The position numbers and the translations under genes were made by a program. Of a stretch of 31,558 nt of DNA, positions 4,489 through 24,953 are shown piece after piece. Each line of letters begins with the position of its first letter. The first letter of the stretch is position 1. The DNA comes from a virus, in IMG/VR virus record IMGVR_UViG_3300044681_001230, positions 1-31,558 of that record. The stretch is one strand, 5' to 3'. The notes under the pieces were generated by a model. The model was not told the origin of the DNA, did not search any database, and saw only the letters and a program-made list of their open reading frames with translations.

Positions 4489-6184
4489 GCAAATTACTTG
4501 GAAAAATTTTCTGAGCACCGGAAATAATCCAACCACAATTAATCTAACTGAAAATACTACAAATTTAATTGTCGGATCAAATGGAGCAGGAAAAAGTACA
4601 ATTTTAGACGCATTAACTTTTGCTCTTTTTAACAAACCCTTCAGAAAAATTAATAAACCACAACTTGTAAATTCTCAAAATGATAGAGACTGTGTGGTTG
4701 AAATTGATTTTGAAGTTGGCTCAGTTTGCTGGAAAGTTGTACGGGGAATGAAACCGAATATTTTTGAAATTCATAAAAATGGAAAAAAACTTCCTCAGAG
4801 TGCAGACATTAAAGATGATCAAAAGCTTTTAGAGCAGTCTATTCTAAAACTCAATTATAAATCTTTTACTCAAATTGTAGTTCTTGGCTCTACAAATTTT
4901 GTCCCATTTATGCAATTAACTGCGGCAAATCGTAGAGAAGTTATTGAAGATCTTCTCGACATAAAAATATTTTCATCAATGAATGATATTGTGAAAATGG
5001 ATCTTAAGGATAATCGAGATGAAATTAAAACTTTAGAGCTTAATCTTGAGTCTGTTAAAGATAAAATTGAAATGCAACAGTCCTTTATTAAACAGCTTGA
5101 AGATCGTGGTAAGCAAGATATAACCGAAAGAAAAAATAAAATTAAAGAATTGGAATCTCTAATATTGGAAAGCCAAAATTCCATCAACGAGTTAACAGAA
5201 CAAATTGATAGTGTTAATACTGAAATTGTATCTTTTTCGGATTCGACTGAAAAACTTAAAAAGCTTGGAACCCTAAAGGGTAAAATGTCTCAAAAAATTA
5301 ATAACATCATAAAAGAGCATAAGTTTTTTAATGAAAATACGGTTTGCCCCACATGCACACAAGATATCGATGAGCAATTTAGGTTAAATAAGATTACTGA
5401 TGCACAAACTAATGCAAAAGAACTTCAAGAAGGATTTAAGAATCTTGAATCTGCAATTTCCGAAGAGGAATTTAGAGAAAATAGATTTTTAGAATTAACA
5501 AAAAGAGTAAGTACATTAACTAATGAAATTTCTAAGCACACTACTAAAGTTTCCGAAAACGGAAAACAAATTCAGCAATTACGACAAGAAATTCAAAAAG
5601 TTGCCGATAGCCTTAAAAACAAAAATATTGAGCATGATAAATTAGAGCAGTATCGCCAAGAACATCAATCATTTAAGACAAAATTAAATGAACGTAAAGA
5701 AAAATCTTCATACTACGATTTCATATATTTGCTGCTAAAAGATGGTGGAGTTAAAACTCAGATCATTAAACACTATCTCCCTCTTATCAACAAAAAGGTA
5801 AATGAATACTTACACCAACTCGATTTTTATATTAATTTTAATCTAGATGAAGAATTTAATGAACGAATAAAAACGCCAATCCATGATACTTTTTCATATA
5901 CATCTTTTAGTGAAGGTGAAAAAATGAGAATTGATCTTGCTTTATTGTTTACTTGGAGAGAAGTTGCTCGCCTTAAAAATTCAATTAATACAAATTTATT
6001 AATCATGGATGAGGTTTTTGATAGCTCATTAGATAGCTTTGGAACTGATGAATTTTTAAAAATCATCCGATATATAATAAAGGATGCTAATATATTTGTA
6101 ATTTCACATAAGTCTGAACTGCATGACAAATTTGAAAGTGTCATACGGTTTGAAAAAGTTAAAAATTTTAGTCGTATCGTCTAA
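4475..6184 (+). CDS. 46: Recombination endonuclease subunit gp46 (Rad50/SbcC-like ATPase)
   Basis: This 569-aa ABC-type SMC-like ATPase has Walker A GSNGAGKS at 34-41, long heptad-rich coiled coils (~170-280 and ~310-400), and a zinc hook CPTC (C291, C294) at the turn. The ABC signature SEGEK is at 479-483 and Walker B/D-loop LLIMDEVFDSSLD has the catalytic acidic pair D512-E513. T4 gp46 (560 aa) has the same size and domain order. It powers the gp47 nuclease, acting as the DNA-tethering ATPase of the complex. The start ATG 4475 lies 14 bases inside the DUF3110 gene. The operon ends here: a small ORF and a terminator follow. Confidence 0.96.
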   Translation: MITFKQITWKNFLSTGNNPTTINLTENTTNLIVGSNGAGKSTILDALTFALFNKPFRKINKPQLVNSQNDRDCVVEIDFEVGSVCWKVVRGMKPNIFEIHKNGKKLPQSADIKDDQKLLEQSILKLNYKSFTQIVVLGSTNFVPFMQLTAANRREVIEDLLDIKIFSSMNDIVKMDLKDNRDEIKTLELNLESVKDKIEMQQSFIKQLEDRGKQDITERKNKIKELESLILESQNSINELTEQIDSVNTEIVSFSDSTEKLKKLGTLKGKMSQKINNIIKEHKFFNENTVCPTCTQDIDEQFRLNKITDAQTNAKELQEGFKNLESAISEEEFRENRFLELTKRVSTLTNEISKHTTKVSENGKQIQQLRQEIQKVADSLKNKNIEHDKLEQYRQEHQSFKTKLNERKEKSSYYDFIYLLLKDGGVKTQIIKHYLPLINKKVNEYLHQLDFYINFNLDEEFNERIKTPIHDTFSYTSFSEGEKMRIDLALLFTWREVARLKNSINTNLLIMDEVFDSSLDSFGTDEFLKIIRYIIKDANIFVISHKSELHDKFESVIRFEKVKNFSRIV

Positions 6185-6201
6185 TCGAGTTACCTACTAA
6201 A

Positions 6202-6384
6202 ATGAACACTCCAAATTGGCAACACAATTCGGGGAAACAGCAAAAACGGCATTTAAAGCCACAAGCTCTCCGACAGGCAAAACAAAAAACAAAAACCTTT
6301 TTGGGACGGTTTAAGAACTGTCACAAAGACTCACCGAAAGGTGGGTCTTTTTCGTATTATTCGATCAGTTCACTTTTTTATTAA
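6202..6384 (+). CDS. Small basic hypothetical ORF (60 aa)
   Basis: The reading frame encodes a Lys/Arg/Gln-rich peptide (e.g. QQKRHLKPQALRQAKQKTK) with no family I recognise. It has an ATG but no visible ribosome-binding site. Its last ~25 codons run through both hairpins of the downstream terminator cassette (6305-6349), and its stop abuts the next ATG. This makes at least the C-terminal part doubtful, and a sequencing or real frameshift near 6300 may have lengthened the frame. The first ~35 residues look protein-like because of their coherent basic amphipathic composition. It could equally be non-coding leader DNA. Confidence 0.4.
   Translation: MNTPNWQHNSGKQQKRHLKPQALRQAKQKTKTFLGRFKNCHKDSPKGGSFSYYSISSLFY
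6304..6323 (+). promoter_or_regulatory. Upstream hairpin of cassette A (GGAC...ACTGTC element)
   Basis: GACGGTT (6305-6311), loop TAAG, AACTGTC (6316-6322) form a 7-bp stem with one G-U pair. The same element (14 of 19 positions identical) occurs at 9948-9966, in the same position relative to a terminator and a downstream start codon. Its role is unknown; RNA processing or 3'-end protection are possibilities. Confidence 0.5.
6326..6352 (+). terminator. Rho-independent terminator (cassette A)
   Basis: AAGACTCACC (6326-6335), a GAAA tetraloop and GGTGGGTCTT (6340-6349) form a 10-bp stem with one G-U pair, followed by a U-tract. It would end transcripts from the gene 47-46 operon before the VWA gene. 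Confidence 0.85.
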
Positions 6385-8526
6385 ATGATCAATCACGAAA
6401 TCAAAGGAAATCTTGCTCGACTTCTTGCAACAGAAGACCTTGTAGTTGAGCATAGAAAAGTTTCTACAGCTTGCTTTAATGTTCAGACTAGGGTTTTGAC
6501 TCTTCCTATTTGGGACAAGGCTTCTGAAGTTGTTTACGATATGTTGGTTGGTCATGAAGTCGGACATGCTTTGTACACCCCAAATGAAGATTGGGGTAAA
6601 GTTAAAAAAATTCCTAAGTCTTTTGTAAATATTACAGAAGATATCCGAATTGAAAAGCTGATGAAGCGTAAATATGGTGGATTGAATAAAATTTTTTATG
6701 CAGCATATAGTGAACTTCACGACGAAGATTTTTTCTGTATTGGTAGTGATGATATTGAAAAATATAACTTAGCTGATAGGATTAATCTTTATTTTAAGAT
6801 TGGAAATTTTTTGGATGTTCCTTTTTCCGAAAGTGAACTTTCTATTGTTGAGAAGGCCAACAAGATGGAAACTTTCGAAGATGCTGTTCATGTTGCAGAG
6901 CTTATCTATAATTTTTGTTGTGAAGAACAGAAGCAAATTCAAGATAATGTCGATAGTTTTGTGAAGAATAGTGATCCAACTAACTCTAAAAATGCTGCTA
7001 TTAGTGGGGAAAGCATTGAAAACTCTTCACCTAAAGATACTTTGGATGATGATGGTGGCAATGAAGTTTTTTCGGATGAACAGGATTCTGTAAAAAATAC
7101 TGATTCCCTTTCTCAAAAGGCTGCAGAAGAAAATAATGGGGAACCAAATACTAACGGACCAAAAGAACCAGAAGTTGTAACTGATCGCAATTTTTCCGAG
7201 AACATTCAAAAGCTCGTTGATCCTAATTGTGAGGAGAGTGACTATGTGGAAATTCCCAAAGTTGATTTGAGCAAACTTATTATTTCTCCTGAAAAATTTC
7301 ATGCAATTTATGAGGATCATATTAAACTGCAAGACTGGACAGAATATGATAAGTATTACGAAGAGTATAAAACAACAGCACAATCTGAGGTTTCATATTT
7401 GATTAAAGAATTTGAATGTAAGAAATCTGCAGATGAATACGCACGAGCTACTGTATCCAGGACGGGAGTTTTAGATACAAAAAAACTTCACACATATAAG
7501 TACAATGAAGATTTGTTTAAAAAGGTAACGAATTTACCTGATGGTAAGAATCACGGTTTGATTTTTATCTTAGACTGGTCTGGTTCTATGGCTAACACTT
7601 TGCTTAACACCGTAAAGCAACTGCTTAATATTATTTGGTTTTGTAAAAAAACTGGAATTGATTTTGAAGTCTATGCATTTTCCGATTCTTATTTTGAAAT
7701 CCAGCAAAATTCTTATGGAGATGAGATAAAAGTTATACCATCTAGGGCATATGAACGAGCTGAACACTATATTGATATTCATCCCGAATTTAAACTTTTT
7801 AACATTCTTAGCAGTAAAACCAAACTTTCTTCATTGAATGGGCACATGAAAAACATCTTTAAACTTGCATATTACTTTTCGTGTGGGAGCGATGTGACTA
7901 TTCCGGAACAAATTTCTCTTAGTTCTACCCCTCTCAATGAAGCGATTGCATGTTTGCACGATCTGATACCGAATTTTGCTTCAAGTTATAAAGTTCAAAA
8001 AGTTCATTGCGTTATATTGACAGACGGTGAAGCTAACAAATCTAAGTATCATAAAATTTTTAATTGTGATTATTCAACTGCCCCTAATTATGGCATTAGA
8101 CGTATTGAACGTGGAGCATTTTTGAGGAATCGTAGGACTGGCAGGATCTATGCATTTTCTTATAACGACTTTAAGAATACTGAAGTTTTTATTCAATCTG
8201 TCAGAGATGCTTTTCCTGAAGTAAATTTTATTGGAATACGTTTACTTGGACATAGAGACAGTTACACCTTCATTAGAACTCATTTTCCATATGAACAACA
8301 TAATCGAGCAAAAACAGAACTTAAAAAGCAAAAAAGTCTAGTAGTTACAACTTCAGGATATCACAAATATTTTGGAATCATGTCAAATTCTCTTTCTTCT
8401 CAAGTTAATTTTATCGTTCCGCCGGGTTCAAGTAAATCGACAATTATTTCGCAATTTAAGAATTCAATGAATGCAAAAAAACTTAATAAAAAGTTTCTTA
8501 ACGAATTTGTAAATTTGATTGCGTAA
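6385..8526 (+). CDS. VWA-domain protein with N-terminal HExxH metallopeptidase-like motif
   Basis: The protein has 713 residues in three visible parts. The N-terminal domain (~1-165) has HEVGH at 57-61 and a following NITEDIRIE helix (82-90), a zincin-like arrangement. A long acidic/Asn-rich linker (~165-275) follows. The C-terminal von Willebrand A domain (~385-640) has a complete MIDAS: D397-x-S399-x-S401, T515 and D547 (LTDGEA). VWA proteins with an N-terminal metallopeptidase-like domain are known to pair with MoxR-type AAA+ ATPases, and CobT pairs with CobS in the same way. The CobS/MoxR-like ATPase is encoded at 10030, and both genes have matching upstream cassettes. I infer that the two form an ATP-driven metal-dependent remodelling or processing complex; the substrate is unknown. 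No Shine-Dalgarno sequence is seen before ATG 6385. Confidence 0.85.
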   Translation: MINHEIKGNLARLLATEDLVVEHRKVSTACFNVQTRVLTLPIWDKASEVVYDMLVGHEVGHALYTPNEDWGKVKKIPKSFVNITEDIRIEKLMKRKYGGLNKIFYAAYSELHDEDFFCIGSDDIEKYNLADRINLYFKIGNFLDVPFSESELSIVEKANKMETFEDAVHVAELIYNFCCEEQKQIQDNVDSFVKNSDPTNSKNAAISGESIENSSPKDTLDDDGGNEVFSDEQDSVKNTDSLSQKAAEENNGEPNTNGPKEPEVVTDRNFSENIQKLVDPNCEESDYVEIPKVDLSKLIISPEKFHAIYEDHIKLQDWTEYDKYYEEYKTTAQSEVSYLIKEFECKKSADEYARATVSRTGVLDTKKLHTYKYNEDLFKKVTNLPDGKNHGLIFILDWSGSMANTLLNTVKQLLNIIWFCKKTGIDFEVYAFSDSYFEIQQNSYGDEIKVIPSRAYERAEHYIDIHPEFKLFNILSSKTKLSSLNGHMKNIFKLAYYFSCGSDVTIPEQISLSSTPLNEAIACLHDLIPNFASSYKVQKVHCVILTDGEANKSKYHKIFNCDYSTAPNYGIRRIERGAFLRNRRTGRIYAFSYNDFKNTEVFIQSVRDAFPEVNFIGIRLLGHRDSYTFIRTHFPYEQHNRAKTELKKQKSLVVTTSGYHKYFGIMSNSLSSQVNFIVPPGSSKSTIISQFKNSMNAKKLNKKFLNEFVNLIA

Positions 8527-8531
8527 CTTTG

Positions 8532-8554
8532 AGGAGGGGAAACCTTCCTTTTTT
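8532..8554 (+). terminator. Rho-independent terminator overlapping a late promoter
   Basis: AGGAGGG (8532-8538), a GAAA loop and CCTTCCT (8543-8549) are followed by T6 (8549-8554). It starts six bases after the VWA gene stop. The last T of the tract is the first base of the TATAAATA late box. Confidence 0.8.
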
Positions 8555-8561
8555 ATAAATA
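8554..8561 (+). promoter_or_regulatory. Late promoter TATAAATA
   Basis: An exact match to the T4-type late promoter core (TATAAATA), which gp55-containing RNA polymerase recognises. It lies 25 bp before the ATG at 8586. Confidence 0.8.
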
Positions 8562-8585
8562 AAAAAAAAGATTCCTGTGCAACGA

Positions 8586-9947
8586 ATGAACTTAATCGAG
8601 GCTTATAACGAGATATATACAAATCAATACAATCTTACGGAAGATTTGACAGATCTTATAATTCAATATTGCATTGAAGACATTGAAGAAGCTAAATCTT
8701 TTGCTGAAGATTTAGTTTTGACAAATCTTGTTCAAGATTTTTTATTTGAATTATCTGAGGAATTAGAAGTAGATATCTCAGAATATCTCGTAGAGGGTGC
8801 AGGATCAACAGCACTTAGGGGTATTATTAATGCCTTAAGTTCTGCTGGAAGAACGAAGGCTGGTCTTCAAGCGGGAACTGCTCTTGGTAAAAAGTTAGAT
8901 ACTACCGTAAGGGGTGCAGCAGCATCAACATCGATTAGATCTGCAAGAGCAGCAAGACCTAAATCTTCTCAGGAACTTCCTGGTAAGTATGCAACCATGC
9001 AGTTCAAAAAGAAAATTGATACTGCTTTATCTAGACCTGCATTGCCCCCAGGAAGATCCTCTGTGCCCCCTCAACGCCCTTCTGGGAAACGTACTCCAGC
9101 AGATGCTGGGATGCCATTCAGAGCGACTGGAGCCGGTGGAGATGCTCGCATACAAAGACTTTCAGCTCAATCTGCTCCCGGATCAGGATTAAACCCGGCT
9201 GCGTTGAAAACTCAAACTTCCAAAATGACTGATGCTGCTGATGCATTAAACAAAGCCAGAAGAGCCCTTGCTGGAGTTGCTGCAGCTGGACTAGCTGCTA
9301 GTTCTGTTGTTCCCGTAATTAACGATACTGGAAAAAAGAAAAGTCCCGAATCCAGCGTAAACAAATACAATACCAAGGATTCGGGTGGTAAAATTAGAAG
9401 TCGCTTAAAGGTTGGCCCTAAAATTGTTGGAACTGGAAGCATAGCTGGTGATTTCGATCTTGCATTTAAAAAGGCAAGATCTTCTGGGGCTAAATCCTTC
9501 AAATTTCAAGGAAAACAATATACTACAAAATTAAAAACTGAGGAAGTTGATTATTTCGATGTAGTGCTGGAAACTTTAATTGCCGAAGGTTATGTTGATA
9601 GTATCGAAGATGCTTTAATTATGATGACCGCATTAGATGAAAATATTATTTCAAAAATAGCCTCTGGTGCTATTAAAAATGTAATTAAAACAGGCGCAGA
9701 CAAATTGACAAAAACAAAACTTCCACCGAAGATGGATCCAGCGTTAAAGGCAGTAAAGGATTCTATTAAACAGCAATATGGATCTGGAGCTTTAATGGGA
9801 ACTCCTGAATACAGATATGCAAAAGCTGCAAGACAAGCTGAATTGAGAAAAAATCCACCGCCAAAGCCAAAATACGTAGATCCATTTCCGGGAGATGTTT
9901 ATTCCAGAGGGGACTTTGGAATTCGAGGATACAGGTCTGGAGATTGA
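8586..9947 (+). CDS. Late-expressed virion-type protein with Ala/Gly/Pro-rich centre
   Basis: The protein has about 453 residues from ATG 8586; an in-frame GTG at 8577 would sit only ~16 bp after the late box, so the ATG is preferred. The acidic helical N terminus contains EDLTDLIIQYCIEDIEEAKS. A low-complexity central region (~80-260) is rich in Ala, Arg, Pro, Ser and Gly. A second acidic helical module YFDVVLETLIAEGYVDSIED lies at ~320-340, and the C terminus is basic, Pro- and Gly-rich. The two acidic modules resemble each other and the 'D-x-V-L-x-x-L-I-x-E-G-[YF]' segments common in cyanophage late proteins. I do not recognise a function; the late promoter and composition suggest a virion or head-associated protein. 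It sits between the VWA and AAA+ genes, with a terminator on both sides. Confidence 0.7.
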   Translation: MNLIEAYNEIYTNQYNLTEDLTDLIIQYCIEDIEEAKSFAEDLVLTNLVQDFLFELSEELEVDISEYLVEGAGSTALRGIINALSSAGRTKAGLQAGTALGKKLDTTVRGAAASTSIRSARAARPKSSQELPGKYATMQFKKKIDTALSRPALPPGRSSVPPQRPSGKRTPADAGMPFRATGAGGDARIQRLSAQSAPGSGLNPAALKTQTSKMTDAADALNKARRALAGVAAAGLAASSVVPVINDTGKKKSPESSVNKYNTKDSGGKIRSRLKVGPKIVGTGSIAGDFDLAFKKARSSGAKSFKFQGKQYTTKLKTEEVDYFDVVLETLIAEGYVDSIEDALIMMTALDENIISKIASGAIKNVIKTGADKLTKTKLPPKMDPALKAVKDSIKQQYGSGALMGTPEYRYAKAARQAELRKNPPPKPKYVDPFPGDVYSRGDFGIRGYRSGD

Positions 9948-9967
9948 GGACACTTTTTAAACTGTCC
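9948..9967 (+). promoter_or_regulatory. Upstream hairpin of cassette B (GGAC...ACTGTC element)
   Basis: GGACA (9948-9952) pairs with TGTCC (9963-9967), with a partly pairing AT-rich interior. It starts at the base after the stop codon of the preceding gene. It is the second copy of the element at 6304-6322, placed 82 bases before the AAA+ gene ATG (81 bases in cassette A). Confidence 0.5.
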
Positions 9968-9969
9968 AT

Positions 9970-9994
9970 TGGGGGCTTTACGGCCCCCATTTTT
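9970..9994 (+). terminator. Rho-independent terminator (cassette B)
   Basis: TGGGGGC (9970-9976), loop TTTACG and GCCCCCA (9983-9989) are followed by T5. It ends the late gene at 8586 before the AAA+ gene. The stem sequence is unrelated to that of cassette A, although the position is the same. Confidence 0.88.
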
Positions 9995-10029
9995 AATGTA
10001 TTATTTCCTTGTGAACACTCACTTTTCAA

Positions 10030-11136
10030 ATGCCCAAAACAATTATGATGACCGACGACCAAATTATCAAAGATCTTAAAGAAATGTTTTCTGCGGAAAT
10101 CACATCTTCTGATATTCGTGGATATTGTGCTTCTAAGGGGTTTTCCTATCCAACCATTACTCGCCGCCTCGATCAGTATAAGGTTGGGCATGGTAAATGG
10201 AATCTAGAAGTTACACAAGAAGCTGTAGATCAAATTGAACATGCTTATGAAGCTCCTTCTGCTATTCCTGTAGTGCAAAAAAATCTTATTCCCTCGAAAG
10301 ATCCTAATTTTGTAAGTTTTGGTAATTTTGTAGATATTAAAAAAATTATTTCTTCTGGAATTTTTTATCCAGCATTTATTACCGGTCTTTCTGGCAACGG
10401 TAAAACTTTTGCAGTCGAGCAAGCATGTGCTCAATTGAAACGTGAATTGATTCGTGTCAACCTCACTATTGAAACCGATGAAGATGATTTGATTGGCGGT
10501 TTTAGGCTTGTTGATGGACAAACCGTCTGGCACAATGGTCCAGTTATTGAAGCACTTCAACGAGGAGCTATTCTTCTTCTCGATGAAATCGATCTTGCTA
10601 GTAATAAGATTATGTGCCTGCAGTCTATTCTAGAAGGTAAAGGTGTTTTTCTTAAAAAAATTGGTAAATTTGTTGAACCTACTCCTGGTTTTAACATTAT
10701 TGCCACTGCAAATACTAAAGGCAAGGGATCTGATGGTGGTATGTTTATTGGAACCAATGTTCTTAACGAAGCCTTTCTGGAACGTTTTTGTGTAACCTTT
10801 GAGCAAAAATATCCAACTTCTCAAACAGAAACAAAAATTCTTGTTAAAGTTGCAACTAGTCTTGGACTTGATTCGGAAGAAAAGTTTTGTGGTTGGTTGG
10901 CTGATTGGGCTGATTTAATTCGTAAAACTTTTTACGAAGGCGCTATTGATGAAGTTATTTCTACTCGCAGACTTGTGCATATTATTCGTGCTTATGCTAT
11001 CTTCGGAAACAAGTTGAAAGCAATTAAGTACTGTATTAATAGGTATGATGAAGCAATAAAAATTTCTTTCCTTCAGTTTTACAACACAGTAGATGCAGAG
11101 ATTGATATTGCTCAACAAGAAGACTCTGGCGCTTGA
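10030..11136 (+). CDS. cobS: MoxR/CobS-type AAA+ ATPase (annotated cobS in related cyanophages)
   Basis: The protein has 368 residues. The N-terminal ~80 residues form a small helical domain with a winged-helix-like segment (SSDIRGYCASKGFSYPTITR). The AAA+ module has Walker A GLSGNGKT (119-126), a 'GGFRL...W..GP' segment (156-171), Walker B LLLDEID (182-188), sensor-1 ATANT (225-229) and an arginine-finger-type FLERF (249-253). This is the MoxR/CobS clade. CobS is the ATPase of the aerobic cobaltochelatase, and cyanophage homologues carry that name. No CobN or genuine cobalamin gene is visible here. The VWA-metallopeptidase gene at 6385 is a better candidate partner. The stop codon overlaps the -35 element of the next promoter (11133-11138). 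Confidence 0.9.
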   Translation: MPKTIMMTDDQIIKDLKEMFSAEITSSDIRGYCASKGFSYPTITRRLDQYKVGHGKWNLEVTQEAVDQIEHAYEAPSAIPVVQKNLIPSKDPNFVSFGNFVDIKKIISSGIFYPAFITGLSGNGKTFAVEQACAQLKRELIRVNLTIETDEDDLIGGFRLVDGQTVWHNGPVIEALQRGAILLLDEIDLASNKIMCLQSILEGKGVFLKKIGKFVEPTPGFNIIATANTKGKGSDGGMFIGTNVLNEAFLERFCVTFEQKYPTSQTETKILVKVATSLGLDSEEKFCGWLADWADLIRKTFYEGAIDEVISTRRLVHIIRAYAIFGNKLKAIKYCINRYDEAIKISFLQFYNTVDAEIDIAQQEDSGA

Positions 11137-19033: not shown

Positions 19034-20035
19034 ATGTCATTTTTAAATGAAATTATTAAGGAGATTGGTGGAGAATATACTCAATTAGCATCAGAAATTG
19101 TAGAGACGGAGAATTATGTTGACACGGGTTCTTTTATCTTTAACGCATTGGTTTCGGGCAGCATTTTTGGCGGGGTTTCTGCTAATAAAATCACTGCTAT
19201 CGCTGGAGAAACTTCTACTGGAAAGACTTTTTTCTCTCTCGCTGTGGTTAAGAATTTTCTTGATAGTAACCCCGATGCTTATTGCCTCTATTTCGATAGT
19301 GAAGCTGCTATCACTAAATCTCTTTTAGAAAGTCGTGGAATTGATACTACTAGAATTGTAGTTGTTAATGTTGTTACTGTAGAGGAGTTTCGTGGAAAAG
19401 CACTTAAGGCAGTTGATATGTATCTTAAAAAGCCTGCTGAAGATCGAAAATTGTGTATGTTTGTGCTAGACTCTTTAGGTATGCTTTCAACTGAAAAGGA
19501 AATTACTGATGCCTTAAATGATAAGCAAGTGAGAGACATGACAAAATCTCAACTTGTTAAAGGAGCATTCCGTATGCTAACTTTGAAGTTGGGCCAGGCA
19601 AACATTCCAATGTTGGTCACCAATCATACCTACGATGTTATTGGTTCTTATGTTCCCGCAAAGGAAATGGGTGGTGGATCTGGGCTTAAATACGCTTCTT
19701 CTACAATCATTTACTTATCCAAGAAAAAGGAAAAGGACGGAACTGAAGTTGTAGGTAATATTATTAAAGCCAAGACTGCTAAATCTCGTTTGAGTAAAGA
19801 AAATCAGGAAGTGGAGATTCGTTTGTATTATGATGAGCGTGGTCTTGATCGGTACTATGGTCTTTTGGAGCTTGGTGAACTTGGTGAACTTTGGAAAAAT
19901 GTTGCGGGTAGATATGAAATAGACGGGAAAAAAATCTATGCAAAACAAATTTTAGCAGAGCCTGAAAAATATTTTACCCCAGAAGTTCTTCAGGCATTAG
20001 ATGAGATTGCTAGGAGTCAATTTTCTTATGGTTGA
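19034..20035 (+). CDS. uvsX: UvsX RecA-like recombinase
   Basis: The protein has 333 residues (T4 UvsX: 391). It has Walker A GETSTGKT (58-65), an acidic residue after AYCLYFDSE (~88-90), Walker B CMFVLDSLG (141-149) and loop-2 region QANIPMLVTNHTYDV with GGGSGLKYASS (~205-235). It forms helical filaments on single-stranded DNA and catalyses strand exchange for recombination-dependent replication, with UvsY as loader. A strong ribosome-binding site precedes ATG 19034. Its last bases overlap the 2OG-oxygenase gene. Confidence 0.95.
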   Translation: MSFLNEIIKEIGGEYTQLASEIVETENYVDTGSFIFNALVSGSIFGGVSANKITAIAGETSTGKTFFSLAVVKNFLDSNPDAYCLYFDSEAAITKSLLESRGIDTTRIVVVNVVTVEEFRGKALKAVDMYLKKPAEDRKLCMFVLDSLGMLSTEKEITDALNDKQVRDMTKSQLVKGAFRMLTLKLGQANIPMLVTNHTYDVIGSYVPAKEMGGGSGLKYASSTIIYLSKKKEKDGTEVVGNIIKAKTAKSRLSKENQEVEIRLYYDERGLDRYYGLLELGELGELWKNVAGRYEIDGKKIYAKQILAEPEKYFTPEVLQALDEIARSQFSYG

Positions 20036-20585
20036 ATTGAATGACCTAATCAAAATTTATCCGGACAGTTTGAGTAAAGATATTTGTAACTACTTAATTA
20101 CTTTTTTCGATTCTAATGAATCTATTCACGAAAAAATTACAAATGACAAAAAGCCAAATTTTACTCAACTTGATTTAAGTGAATGTGTATCTAAAAATTC
20201 TGAATTAGAATCTGTTCATAATTTTTTAGTACATACAACAATACAATATAAAAACGAATATTATTCGTTTATTGATTCTAGATGTTTCCCTGAGGATAAT
20301 GCATTTGAACACTTTCGCATAAAACGATATTTGAATAATGGAGATGATGCCTTTGATACTCATGTTGATGTCAAAGATCTTAGTACATGCAAAAGATATC
20401 TTTCCTTTATGTGGTATTTGAATGATGTTGAATCTGGGGGAAACACTGTTTTTTATGATTATCAAATTAAACCAAAAGCTGGAACTTTAGTAGTTTTTCC
20501 CCCCATGTGGATGTATCCTCACAAGGGAGAAGAGCCAATTAGTGGATCGAAGTATATTATGAGTACTTACTTACATTACGTTTGA
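20028..20585 (+). CDS. 2-oxoglutarate/Fe(II)-dependent oxygenase
   Basis: The protein has 185 residues from ATG 20028, which overlaps the uvsX stop by 8 bases. An earlier in-frame ATG at 20001 would overlap by 35 bases and adds nine residues without family resemblance. The prolyl-4-hydroxylase-like jelly-roll motifs are present: iron ligands H112-x-D114 (DTHVDV) and H165 (YPHKG), and K175 (SGSKYIMSTYL) in the place of the 2-oxoglutarate-binding basic residue. Between them lie LSFMWYLND and GGNTVFYD, typical of this fold. It would hydroxylate a protein or nucleotide substrate, unknown here. 2OG oxygenases are frequent in cyanophages and may also be linked to 2-oxoglutarate and nitrogen status in the host (inference). 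It is located between uvsX and gp41. Confidence 0.85.
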   Translation: MVELNDLIKIYPDSLSKDICNYLITFFDSNESIHEKITNDKKPNFTQLDLSECVSKNSELESVHNFLVHTTIQYKNEYYSFIDSRCFPEDNAFEHFRIKRYLNNGDDAFDTHVDVKDLSTCKRYLSFMWYLNDVESGGNTVFYDYQIKPKAGTLVVFPPMWMYPHKGEEPISGSKYIMSTYLHYV

Positions 20586-22443: not shown

Positions 22444-22698
22444 ATGCCACCCTTTTTACAGATAGTGCTGGATAAATTTGTAGACAGCTATTATCAGGAA
22501 AAGAAAAAAATAAGATATGATAGAGATGCAATTCTTAATTTGTGTCTCTATTTTTCTTGTGTTATGGACAATGAGATTAAAACGAAAAGAAATCCAAATG
22601 AAATTAAAAAGTATAAAAACCTAAAGATGTATGGTCTTGACTATATAAAATATAACAAAAAAACAATAACAAACTATTTAAATTTGCAAACAAGATGA
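22444..22698 (+). CDS. Hypothetical basic protein (84 aa)
   Basis: The protein has 84 residues and I recognise no family. It is helical, with many Lys and Tyr residues and an N-terminal hydrophobic stretch (PPFLQIVLDKFVDSYY). It is probably expressed late because of the AATAAATA box just upstream, and it overlaps the next gene by four bases (ATGA). It may be a small packaged or structural accessory protein. No signal peptide or transmembrane segment is convincing. Confidence 0.6.
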   Translation: MPPFLQIVLDKFVDSYYQEKKKIRYDRDAILNLCLYFSCVMDNEIKTKRNPNEIKKYKNLKMYGLDYIKYNKKTITNYLNLQTR

Positions 22699-22943
22699 AA
22701 ACTTTTTTAGACTTTTTATCTGAGGCAACTCGACATCAACCTAACTTAGAAAGTTTCACCCCGGAAGAATTGCGAGAAAAATATATTTGCGGTTCAATTT
22801 TTAAAAATGGGTCTCTTATTGAACAAATAAGCACCGGAAAAATAGGAACTGTTATGAGACGAGGAACTAATTACCTAATATGTTTAACTGATGATGGTAA
22901 TCTGTTTAAACCTTGGATCACTGATTCTAAAGAACTTAAATAA
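22695..22943 (+). CDS. Small SH3-like protein with a T4-type capsid-targeting N terminus
   Basis: The protein has 82 residues. The first eleven, MKTFLDFLSEA, align without gaps with the capsid-targeting sequence of T4 internal proteins (IPI/IPIII: MKTYQEFIAEA). In T4 the head protease gp21 cleaves after Glu10 in an (I/L)-x-E site; here the site would be L-S-E10/A11. The remainder, with ISTGKIGTVMRRGTNYLICLTDDGNLFKPWI, resembles a KOW/SH3-like barrel found repeatedly in cyanophage small proteins. Together this predicts an internal head protein packaged with the DNA. It overlaps the previous gene by ATGA. A late box follows at its own stop codon. Confidence 0.7.
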   Translation: MKTFLDFLSEATRHQPNLESFTPEELREKYICGSIFKNGSLIEQISTGKIGTVMRRGTNYLICLTDDGNLFKPWITDSKELK

Positions 22944-22976: not shown

Positions 22977-24632
22977 ATGTCTAATATTTGGCAGCAAGCT
23001 TTTGAATCCCATAGAGAGCAAATAGACGAGAATTATGTTGCTGAAAAATATGGGCAACATAAGAGTGATGAGTCTGAAGAAACTCAAGCTCTTTATGATC
23101 TTCGTAACAAAATGAAGAACATGGGTAAGGATGCGGTGATTGCTTACCTAAAGCGTTCTAAAATGTCTCCCGAAAGAAAGGCAAGACTCGCTCGTTCATT
23201 GGGGGTTTCTTTTGTTGGAGAAGAAGTTACAACTGAGGGTGTTGCTTCATTGATTAGAGGAGGTCTTGCTGCTGGAACTGCATTAGCTGGTATTAAAGTT
23301 GGCAAAGATGCACAAGATGTAGCTAATAGACTAAAAGCACAAAATGCACAGAAAGAAAAACAAATAAAGCAACTTTTAAATAGGGAAGAATTTGAAAATA
23401 TCGAGGAAAAAATTACAGCTAAAACGGATATTGGAGATGCAATTAGAGATTTTGAATCGTCAAAATCTCCACAATTAGCTGGTAGAACTAAAGAAGAAAG
23501 AAGAAAGGCTGCTATTGCTGCGGTATTAACTGCACGTAGAGGTGGAAAAAAGTTAGGTGAAGATATTTCAGACATTGCTGAAGATCAAAAGGGAAAGGTT
23601 CACGTTAGAATTACCAAAGACGATGGAACTACCTTTGAAAAGCATCTTTTACCAAATCAAGTTTTAGATTATAGAAAAAGATATAAAACTGTAGTTGTTT
23701 TGGGAGCTGAAGAAGGATTAGCAACCGGGACAGCTTCTTCGCAGCAACAAAGAGCAGAAGCTACGGAAGTTAAGCGTTGGTGGGATGATGATGGCGATGG
23801 GGTTGGATATGAAAAGGGTGAAGTTTCTGGAAAGTTTAAGAAAAAAAAGAAAGTAAAAAAAGAAAGTTATTCTGAATGGAGAAATGAACTCCCTCAGTTT
23901 TACGAGGAAACAAAAGCTCAAAAAAGCGTAATGGGCAGAGGATCTACTCCTTCCGATGAGGGAGAAGAAAAAAAAAATAAAAAAAAATCCTCTGAGTCCG
24001 AATGTGGTTGTTCACACGAAGTAAAGGAAGCTGCCGAAAAATTAGCTGAAGATCTTGGAGCAGAATTAGTTGATATTAACGAATTTGCTGGACCTTTAGT
24101 AAGAAGTGCAATTAAAGCATTTACACGCACTCCAGTAAAACCAAGTCCCTTAAAAATACCCATAAGACCTTTAACCCCAGGACCAATTGTTCCAGCTAAG
24201 CCTTCTCCAAAACCAACGCCAACAAAGCCACAACCAAAGCCACAACCACAACCACAACCAAAGCCACAACCACAACCACAACCAAAGCCACAACCAAAGC
24301 CACAACCACAACCAAAGCCACAACCAAAGCCACAACCAAAGCCAGTACCAACTCCGGTAAAAACAACCCCAAAAGGTCAAACTAAAACACAAACCGGAAT
24401 TTTAGTTAGACTTGATCCTAAAACTGGAGCCATAAGTGATGTTGAAACTAAACCAACAGTTGGGGTCAATGTACCAACTCCTCCTGGACCACCTTCAACT
24501 CCAGCTCCACCAGCTCCACCTAGAGGGCCAGGATTAAGACCTACTCCAAGGAATAATCGTAAACTTTTAGCACCTCAATTGAGAGCATCTCTACCAGATC
24601 CTATTCCAAAAACCGGTCAATTTAAGGTTTGA
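22977..24632 (+). CDS. Large late protein with Pro-Gln/Pro-Lys tandem repeat (virion-type)
   Basis: The protein has 551 residues with no enzymatic family recognised. The N-terminal half is helical and charged, with a Gly/Ala-rich segment GGLAAGTALAG (~95-105). At ~262-274 an acidic DDDGDG cluster reads like a calcium-binding loop (WWDDDGDGVGYEKGE), followed by KFKKKKKVKKESYSEWR, a phrase common in cyanophage late proteins. Acidic/lysine patches follow to ~345. After ~385 the chain becomes proline-rich, with 19 consecutive Pro-Gln or Pro-Lys units (residues 418-455) and a second Pro-rich tail. This suggests an extended, spacer-like virion component. The AATAAATA late box upstream supports late synthesis. 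Confidence 0.75.
   Translation: MSNIWQQAFESHREQIDENYVAEKYGQHKSDESEETQALYDLRNKMKNMGKDAVIAYLKRSKMSPERKARLARSLGVSFVGEEVTTEGVASLIRGGLAAGTALAGIKVGKDAQDVANRLKAQNAQKEKQIKQLLNREEFENIEEKITAKTDIGDAIRDFESSKSPQLAGRTKEERRKAAIAAVLTARRGGKKLGEDISDIAEDQKGKVHVRITKDDGTTFEKHLLPNQVLDYRKRYKTVVVLGAEEGLATGTASSQQQRAEATEVKRWWDDDGDGVGYEKGEVSGKFKKKKKVKKESYSEWRNELPQFYEETKAQKSVMGRGSTPSDEGEEKKNKKKSSESECGCSHEVKEAAEKLAEDLGAELVDINEFAGPLVRSAIKAFTRTPVKPSPLKIPIRPLTPGPIVPAKPSPKPTPTKPQPKPQPQPQPKPQPQPQPKPQPKPQPQPKPQPKPQPKPVPTPVKTTPKGQTKTQTGILVRLDPKTGAISDVETKPTVGVNVPTPPGPPSTPAPPAPPRGPGLRPTPRNNRKLLAPQLRASLPDPIPKTGQFKV
24228..24341 (+). repeat. 19 x 6-bp tandem repeat (CCACAA / CCAAAG)
   Basis: 114 bp consist only of CCACAA (Pro-Gln) and CCAAAG (Pro-Lys) units, in the order Q K QQQ K QQQ K Q K QQ K Q K Q K. 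Every proline is CCA, every Gln CAA and every Lys AAG, so the array has expanded recently by slippage or recombination, and copy number probably varies between strains. Confidence 0.95.
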
Positions 24633-24635
24633 TTT

Positions 24636-24643
24636 TATAAATA
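24636..24643 (+). promoter_or_regulatory. Late promoter TATAAATA
   Basis: An exact late core in the 34-bp gap, 24 bp before ATG 24667. Confidence 0.8.
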
Positions 24644-24917: not shown

Positions 24918-24946
24918 TGGGGGAGATAATTTACTCCCCCATTTTT
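24918..24946 (+). terminator. Rho-independent terminator fused to a late promoter
   Basis: TGGGGGAG (24918-24925), an 8-nt loop and CTCCCCCA (24934-24941) are followed by T5 (24942-24946). The last T belongs to the next late box. Confidence 0.88.
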
Positions 24947-24953
24947 ATAAATA
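24946..24953 (+). promoter_or_regulatory. Late promoter TATAAATA
   Basis: An exact late core at the end of the terminator U-tract, 28 bp before ATG 24981. Confidence 0.82.

Follow-up and report, generated by a model that had tools for sequence, protein, structure and literature searches.

Does the cobS gene of T4-like cyanophages serve cobalamin (vitamin B12) synthesis? The gene is a core marker of these phages, and ocean virome studies class it among the auxiliary metabolic genes for B12 (PMC9983427, PMC3037559). The question was raised anew by a virus record from IMG/VR (IMGVR_UViG_3300044681_001230, positions 1 to 31,558; here the window, 31.6 kb), which encodes a CobS-like AAA+ ATPase and, upstream of it, a protein with an HEVGH motif and a von Willebrand factor A (VWA) domain. 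An earlier reading of the letters alone (the original prediction) had taken the two for a MoxR-type motor and its VWA partner. We consider it probable, with moderate confidence, that they are a CobN-independent two-component remodelling machine of the MoxR-VWA (CobS-CobT) type, possibly proteolytic, that is used during phage replication. The gene pair itself has been described before as cobST, part of the cyanophage core, in which cobT was "mistakenly annotated as a peptidase" (PMC8651126). What is new is that the zincin site does not vary, that cellular CobT is without it, that the family is independent of CobN, and that a replication setting recurs.

The gene pair and its conserved sites

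Both open reading frames (ORFs) sit at the positions originally given, with every residue named there present. The VWA protein matched phrog_459 in PHROG ('peptidase', E = 1.8e-246), and the AAA+ protein matched phrog_249 ('porphyrin biosynthesis', E = 7e-128) and the Pfam family AAA_5 (E = 3.9e-18). Lying near each other on the same strand, phrog_459 and phrog_249 constitute the same gene pair as viral cobST, and also a MoxR-VWA locus, with a P-loop AAA+ protein (Walker A and B, candidate arginine finger) and a VWA protein with a metal ion-dependent adhesion site (MIDAS). The VWA gene was present in 463 phage records; for the AAA gene, at a coverage of 80% or more, the number was 458. This is a comparison of counts and not of record lists, and the counts by record name were equal for the two genes (Synechococcus 365, Cyanophage 61, Prochlorococcus 24). 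Viral contigs were searched with an alignment of homologues in place of the single VWA sequence, which matched nothing. The AAA gene lay downstream of the VWA gene in 69/80 IMG/VR loci; in the remaining 11 the contig breaks off within 1.9 kb of the VWA gene. This near-perfect co-occurrence bears out the proposal that the two genes form one functional pair. The distance between them was variable, from an overlap or a few bases up to 4012 nt (median 275). P-SSM2, S-ShM2, and Mosig have different genes in the gap and S-T4 has none; gap contents among relatives include nothing, nrdC, a DNA-binding gene, and up to 4 kb.

The zinc motif of the VWA protein is fuller than noted earlier. All 85 homologues in the alignment contained HExxH followed after 17–21 residues by N-x-x-E-D-x-R, and H57, E58, H61, N82, E85, D86, and R88 were unvarying together with the five MIDAS residues, compared with a mean of 0.68 for column conservation. 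This invariance is far beyond chance and indicates strong selection on the zinc site and the MIDAS. H57 and H61 are candidate zinc ligands, E58 is a candidate general base, and E85 a candidate third ligand. A structure model of the N-terminal domain (predicted local distance difference test (pLDDT) 92, predicted template modelling score 0.86) put HExxH on helix 48–64 and the E85 motif on helix 78–96, the zincin arrangement of a conserved HExxH and a third-ligand candidate on two helices (85/85). The leading PDB matches of this model in Foldseek, with weak E-values, were ArdC, selecase, PprI, and abylysin, which all have metallopeptidase folds, and the domain is predicted to be zincin-like. It shares HExxH and a downstream glutamate helix with the minigluzincins (selecase, abylysin), ArdC, and PprI and may resemble them in fold; unlike them, it is joined in one protein with a VWA domain and has an AAA+ motor as partner.

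The full-length VWA protein gave nothing useful in a sequence search of the PDB and matched no Pfam family at E up to 1, including the CobT models PF06213 and PF11775. Its full-length structure model had the NorQD complex among its best solved-structure matches, with human MDN1-MIDAS lower in the list. The AAA+ protein matched CobS and NorQ/CbbQ chains in the PDB; against the CobS equivalog model TIGR01650 it scored 80.7 bits, short of the curated cut-off of 558.55. These matches agree with the assignment to the MoxR-VWA type. NorQ-NorD and CbbQ-CbbO likewise combine a MoxR-type AAA+ protein with a VWA partner and differ in their other partners, the likeness here being one of fold and sequence matches. 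RavA-ViaA is another MoxR AAA+ protein with a VWA partner (general knowledge; PMC10585395); the searches run returned no match to either, and no RavA/ViaA profile was compared directly.

Kinship with CobT and the cobalamin question

Profile comparisons connected the VWA protein with cellular CobT through proteins of other phages. The Kyanoviridae profile matched the profile of CobT-like proteins from other phages over the VWA region (97.6%, E = 4.8e-12), and the latter matched cellular CobT over its whole length (100%, E = 1.5e-40). The proteins of phages SSU5 and CRP-810 matched both PF06213 and PF11775. By these comparisons the VWA protein is probably a divergent relative of CobT. Most of the sampled phage CobT-like sequences keep HExxH: it was found with the glutamate-containing helix in Rhizobium phage X66, ICP2, a Cobavirinae phage, an Actinomycetia phage, and Ochrobactrum phage OC, as well as in SSU5, Cyrano, CRP-810, HVTV-1, Pumpernickel, and GodonK. 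The cellular CobT sequences examined have HDxxxH or HNxxxH at that place and retain the downstream glutamate. Two apparent HExxH matches in cellular CobT ORFs were discarded as read-through translation far upstream of the CobT start. Staphylococcus phage ISP was considered as a further pair and left out of the VWA comparisons, as its ORF185 and ORF178 are without the MIDAS pattern. In the AAA tree, the cellular CobS sequences made up a single clade, to which two phage sequences were nearest; the AAA proteins of Kyanoviridae fell in another clade, with that of OC. The VWA tree also joined Kyanoviridae and OC, with starred support, and was poorly resolved elsewhere. Both trees are unrooted, and no direction of change was read from them.

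Alphaproteobacterial CobS-CobT(-CobN) is like the phage pair in its AAA+ protein, its subunit with acidic linker and VWA domain, its adjacent genes, and its homology by way of the CobT of other phages. It differs in the HDxxxH of cellular CobT versus the phage HExxH, and the phage pair is without CobN and far under the family cut-offs. No match to CobN (PF02514) was found in the window, as originally stated of the cobaltochelatase large subunit, nor in any of 14 related phage and plasmid records. Plasmid records with relatives of the pair numbered 1013, of which 348 were from Klebsiella and 229 from Escherichia; among them are phage-plasmids of E. coli, a species that in the control set is without PF02514. 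Caulobacter in the same set has CobT and CobS and no PF02514. A genome scan used a Sinorhizobium CobT as query. Of 289 Alphaproteobacteria, 228 had CobT (PF06213), 122 the CobN/ChlH family (PF02514), 119 both, and 109 CobT without CobN/ChlH; genome completeness values were absent, and some absences may be gaps. Given these 109 genomes, cellular CobT may also act outside cobaltochelatase. The 14 records, the E. coli phage-plasmids, and the Alphaproteobacteria together uphold the original view that the pair is probably not a cobalamin gene. The cyanobacterial control, Synechococcus elongatus, has the CobN/ChlH family and neither TIGR01650 CobS nor PF06213 CobT; this single genome therefore lends no support to a simple origin from the host.

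Two unrelated proteins go by the name cobS, and two by the name cobT. In Cyrano (4666–6774 of its record) CobT carries the annotation dimethylbenzimidazole phosphoribosyltransferase, and the cobS of cyanophages is entered as 'cobalamin synthetase' (PMC9983427, table 1; PMC4303638, methods).

Replication setting and competing explanations

The pair recurs beside replication genes. In Kyanoviridae it lies between gp46 and gp45/gp44; in the SSU5, Cyrano, nickie, Stenotrophomonas, Rhizobium, and Acinetobacter elements it adjoins dnaE (the DNA polymerase III alpha subunit), and in ICP2 and the Cobavirinae phage a primase, helicase, or polymerase. Some of these phage groups are interrelated, and we counted about three independent cases. 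By guilt by association, this placement suggests a role in the DNA-replication phase.

The reading that we favour would work as follows. A ring-forming, presumably hexameric, AAA+ ATPase would be physically coupled to a subunit with three parts: a zincin domain at the N-terminus, a flexible acidic linker, and a VWA domain whose MIDAS is intact. If it works like NorQ-NorD, Rea1/midasin, and CobS-CobT, the MIDAS would capture a client through a metal-bridged acidic residue, and the ring, by hydrolysing ATP, would pull on the client or change its shape. The zincin site would either clip the client, if it is an active peptidase, or load metal into it, and the machine would act in the DNA-replication phase, on a client of that phase. 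As it has no need of CobN, it would not be a cobaltochelatase as such. A bolder version, which we hold only tentatively and think on the whole unlikely, makes the pair an ATP-fuelled metalloprotease or remodeller whose target is the replication apparatus. It would then be a replication factor common among phages and masked by its B12 label, and cellular CobT would be a relative that lost the protease-type site.

Several observations weigh against the CobT-type replication machine. The direct match between the Kyanoviridae and cellular CobT profiles was weak (E = 0.005, probability 7%), leaving the link to intermediate phage proteins, although it fell in the same register (HALYTP...VEDaRIE against Ha..P...VEQARVE). 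The PDB matches of the zincin domain were also weak by E-value (best E = 0.1), with a Foldseek probability of 0.98 for selecase. HExxH was lost in the Stenotrophomonas phage, Acinetobacter plasmid, and nickie versions, so peptidase activity is not required of every member. The Microbacterium and Gordonia phages (actinophages) have the gene away from replication genes, and early phage genes cluster together anyway.

A metalloenzyme chaperone in the style of NorQ-NorD or CbbQ-CbbO, whose zincin site would bind or pass on metal with no cutting, would account for the closest structural matches (NorQD for the VWA protein, NorQ/CbbQ chains for the AAA+ protein), and iron enzymes are at hand: class I ribonucleotide reductase in the window, and 2-oxoglutarate-Fe(II) oxygenases encoded in its relatives. 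We nevertheless think it improbable, as no metalloenzyme neighbour is conserved across the phage groups with the pair and the full retention of E58 in HExxH suggests selection beyond metal binding. That the pair processes or assembles virion proteins, such as the product of the gene that separates its members in the window, strikes us as very doubtful. The pair does flank a late-type cassette there, and T4-like phages are generally known to use proteolysis in head maturation, but the gap content is variable, DSL-LC03 is the one phage record with a full-length relative of the intervening gene, and the pair lies among replication genes, not in the structural block.

The published proposal (PMC8651126) is that phage CobS-CobT hijacks the host CobN (or ChlH) and raises cobalamin output in infection. 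In that account the VWA protein is CobT and its 'peptidase' annotation is mistaken. The CobS-like character of the AAA+ protein, both in TIGR01650 and in the CobS chains of the PDB, favours it, as does the CobN/ChlH family in the control cyanobacterium. The same TIGR01650 score is far under the cut-off, the VWA protein matches neither CobT model, CobN is in none of the 14 records, and relatives reside in phage-plasmids of a species without PF02514. The window phage, like DSL-LC03, also has class I nrdA/nrdB, which need no B12. Cyanophages could hijack CobN, since the family may be present in their hosts, but this would leave the wider family unexplained; we regard the proposal as weakened and quite unlikely. 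Should the two genes instead encode a remodelling machine that works without CobN, B12 inferences based on cobS should be dropped. The zincin site, invariant in the phage family and not found in cellular CobT, offers with E58 and the MIDAS a direct handle on the client of the machine.

The intervening gene and other features of the window

The gene order of the window (uvsW-like helicase, gp46/47, gp45, gp44, gp62, regA, gp43, uvsX, gp41, primase, nrdA/nrdB) closely matches that of Synechococcus phage DSL-LC03, a freshwater member of Kyanoviridae. The window thereby adds to cobST a member from a Kyanoviridae phage of freshwater type that is close to DSL-LC03. Table 1 lists the features of the locus.

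Table 1 Features of the cobST locus, in window coordinates
Feature	Position	Strand	Evidence or remark
Terminator-like hairpin before VWA gene	6325..6350	+	hairpin search
CobT-like zincin-VWA protein, 713 amino acids, phrog_459	6385..8526	+	annotated 'peptidase' in cyanophages
N-terminal zincin-like domain (predicted), residues 1-191 modelled	6385..6957	+	structure model, Foldseek
HEVGH, residues 57-61	6553..6567	+	predicted helix 48-64; H/E/H invariant 85/85
N-I-T-E-D-I-R, residues 82-88	6628..6648	+	predicted helix 78-96; N82, E85, D86, R88 invariant
Acidic linker, residues 195-258	6967..7158	+	low confidence, probably disordered; pLDDT below 50
VWA domain, about residues 390-666	7552..8382	+	MIDAS invariant; best PDB match NorQD complex
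MIDAS D397-x-S399-x-S401	7573-7587	+	invariant in 85 homologues
MIDAS T515	7927-7929	+	invariant in 85 homologues
MIDAS D547	8023-8025	+	invariant in 85 homologues
Terminator-like hairpin after VWA gene	8531..8550	+	hairpin search
TATAAATA, T4-type late-promoter-like octamer	8554..8561	+	25 nt before ATG at 8586
Intervening gene	8586..9947	+	variable insertion; outside core pair
Terminator-like hairpin after intervening gene	9970..9989	+	hairpin search
CobS-like AAA+ ATPase, 368 amino acids, phrog_249	10030..11136	+	Pfam, PHROG, TIGRFAM, PDB matches
Walker A GLSGNGKT, residues 119-126	10384..10407	+	present, conserved
Walker B LLLDEID, residues 182-188	10573..10593	+	present, conserved
FLERF, residues 249-253, candidate arginine finger	10774..10788	+	conserved at 97% or more

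The intervening gene has the look of a late cassette that entered the space between the two genes in a few relatives; among environmental loci, one had a clear relative of it and six had weak ones. The pair was originally described as split by a late virion gene. Lateness is plausible from TATAAATA and the hairpins, and the split is local to few relatives; as a virion gene it is at most putative. The accompanying suggestion that the product of this gene is the client of the machine was rejected: the gene is absent from most relatives and the gap content varies, making it an unlikely client. On the plus strand of the window, 3/4 TATAAATA octamers lie 24–28 nt before gene starts, and those at 24636–24643, 24946–24953, and 8554–8561 resemble T4-type late promoters.

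Four further ORFs drew attention. Immediately before the VWA gene, a 60-amino acid ORF (6202–6384) matches phrog_3309 over residues 1–32 and has the hairpin at 6325–6350 inside its 3' part, so it may be truncated or mis-ended. A 194-amino acid ORF (20001–20585) lies between uvsX and the gp41 helicase, where DSL-LC03 has no annotated counterpart. An ORF of 551 amino acids (22977–24632) contains an extended Pro-Gln-Lys repeat and is closely preceded by ATAAATA (22940, 22944). The 82-amino acid ORF at 22695–22943 begins MKTFLDFLSEA, an N-terminus that we take to resemble the capsid-targeting peptides of T4.

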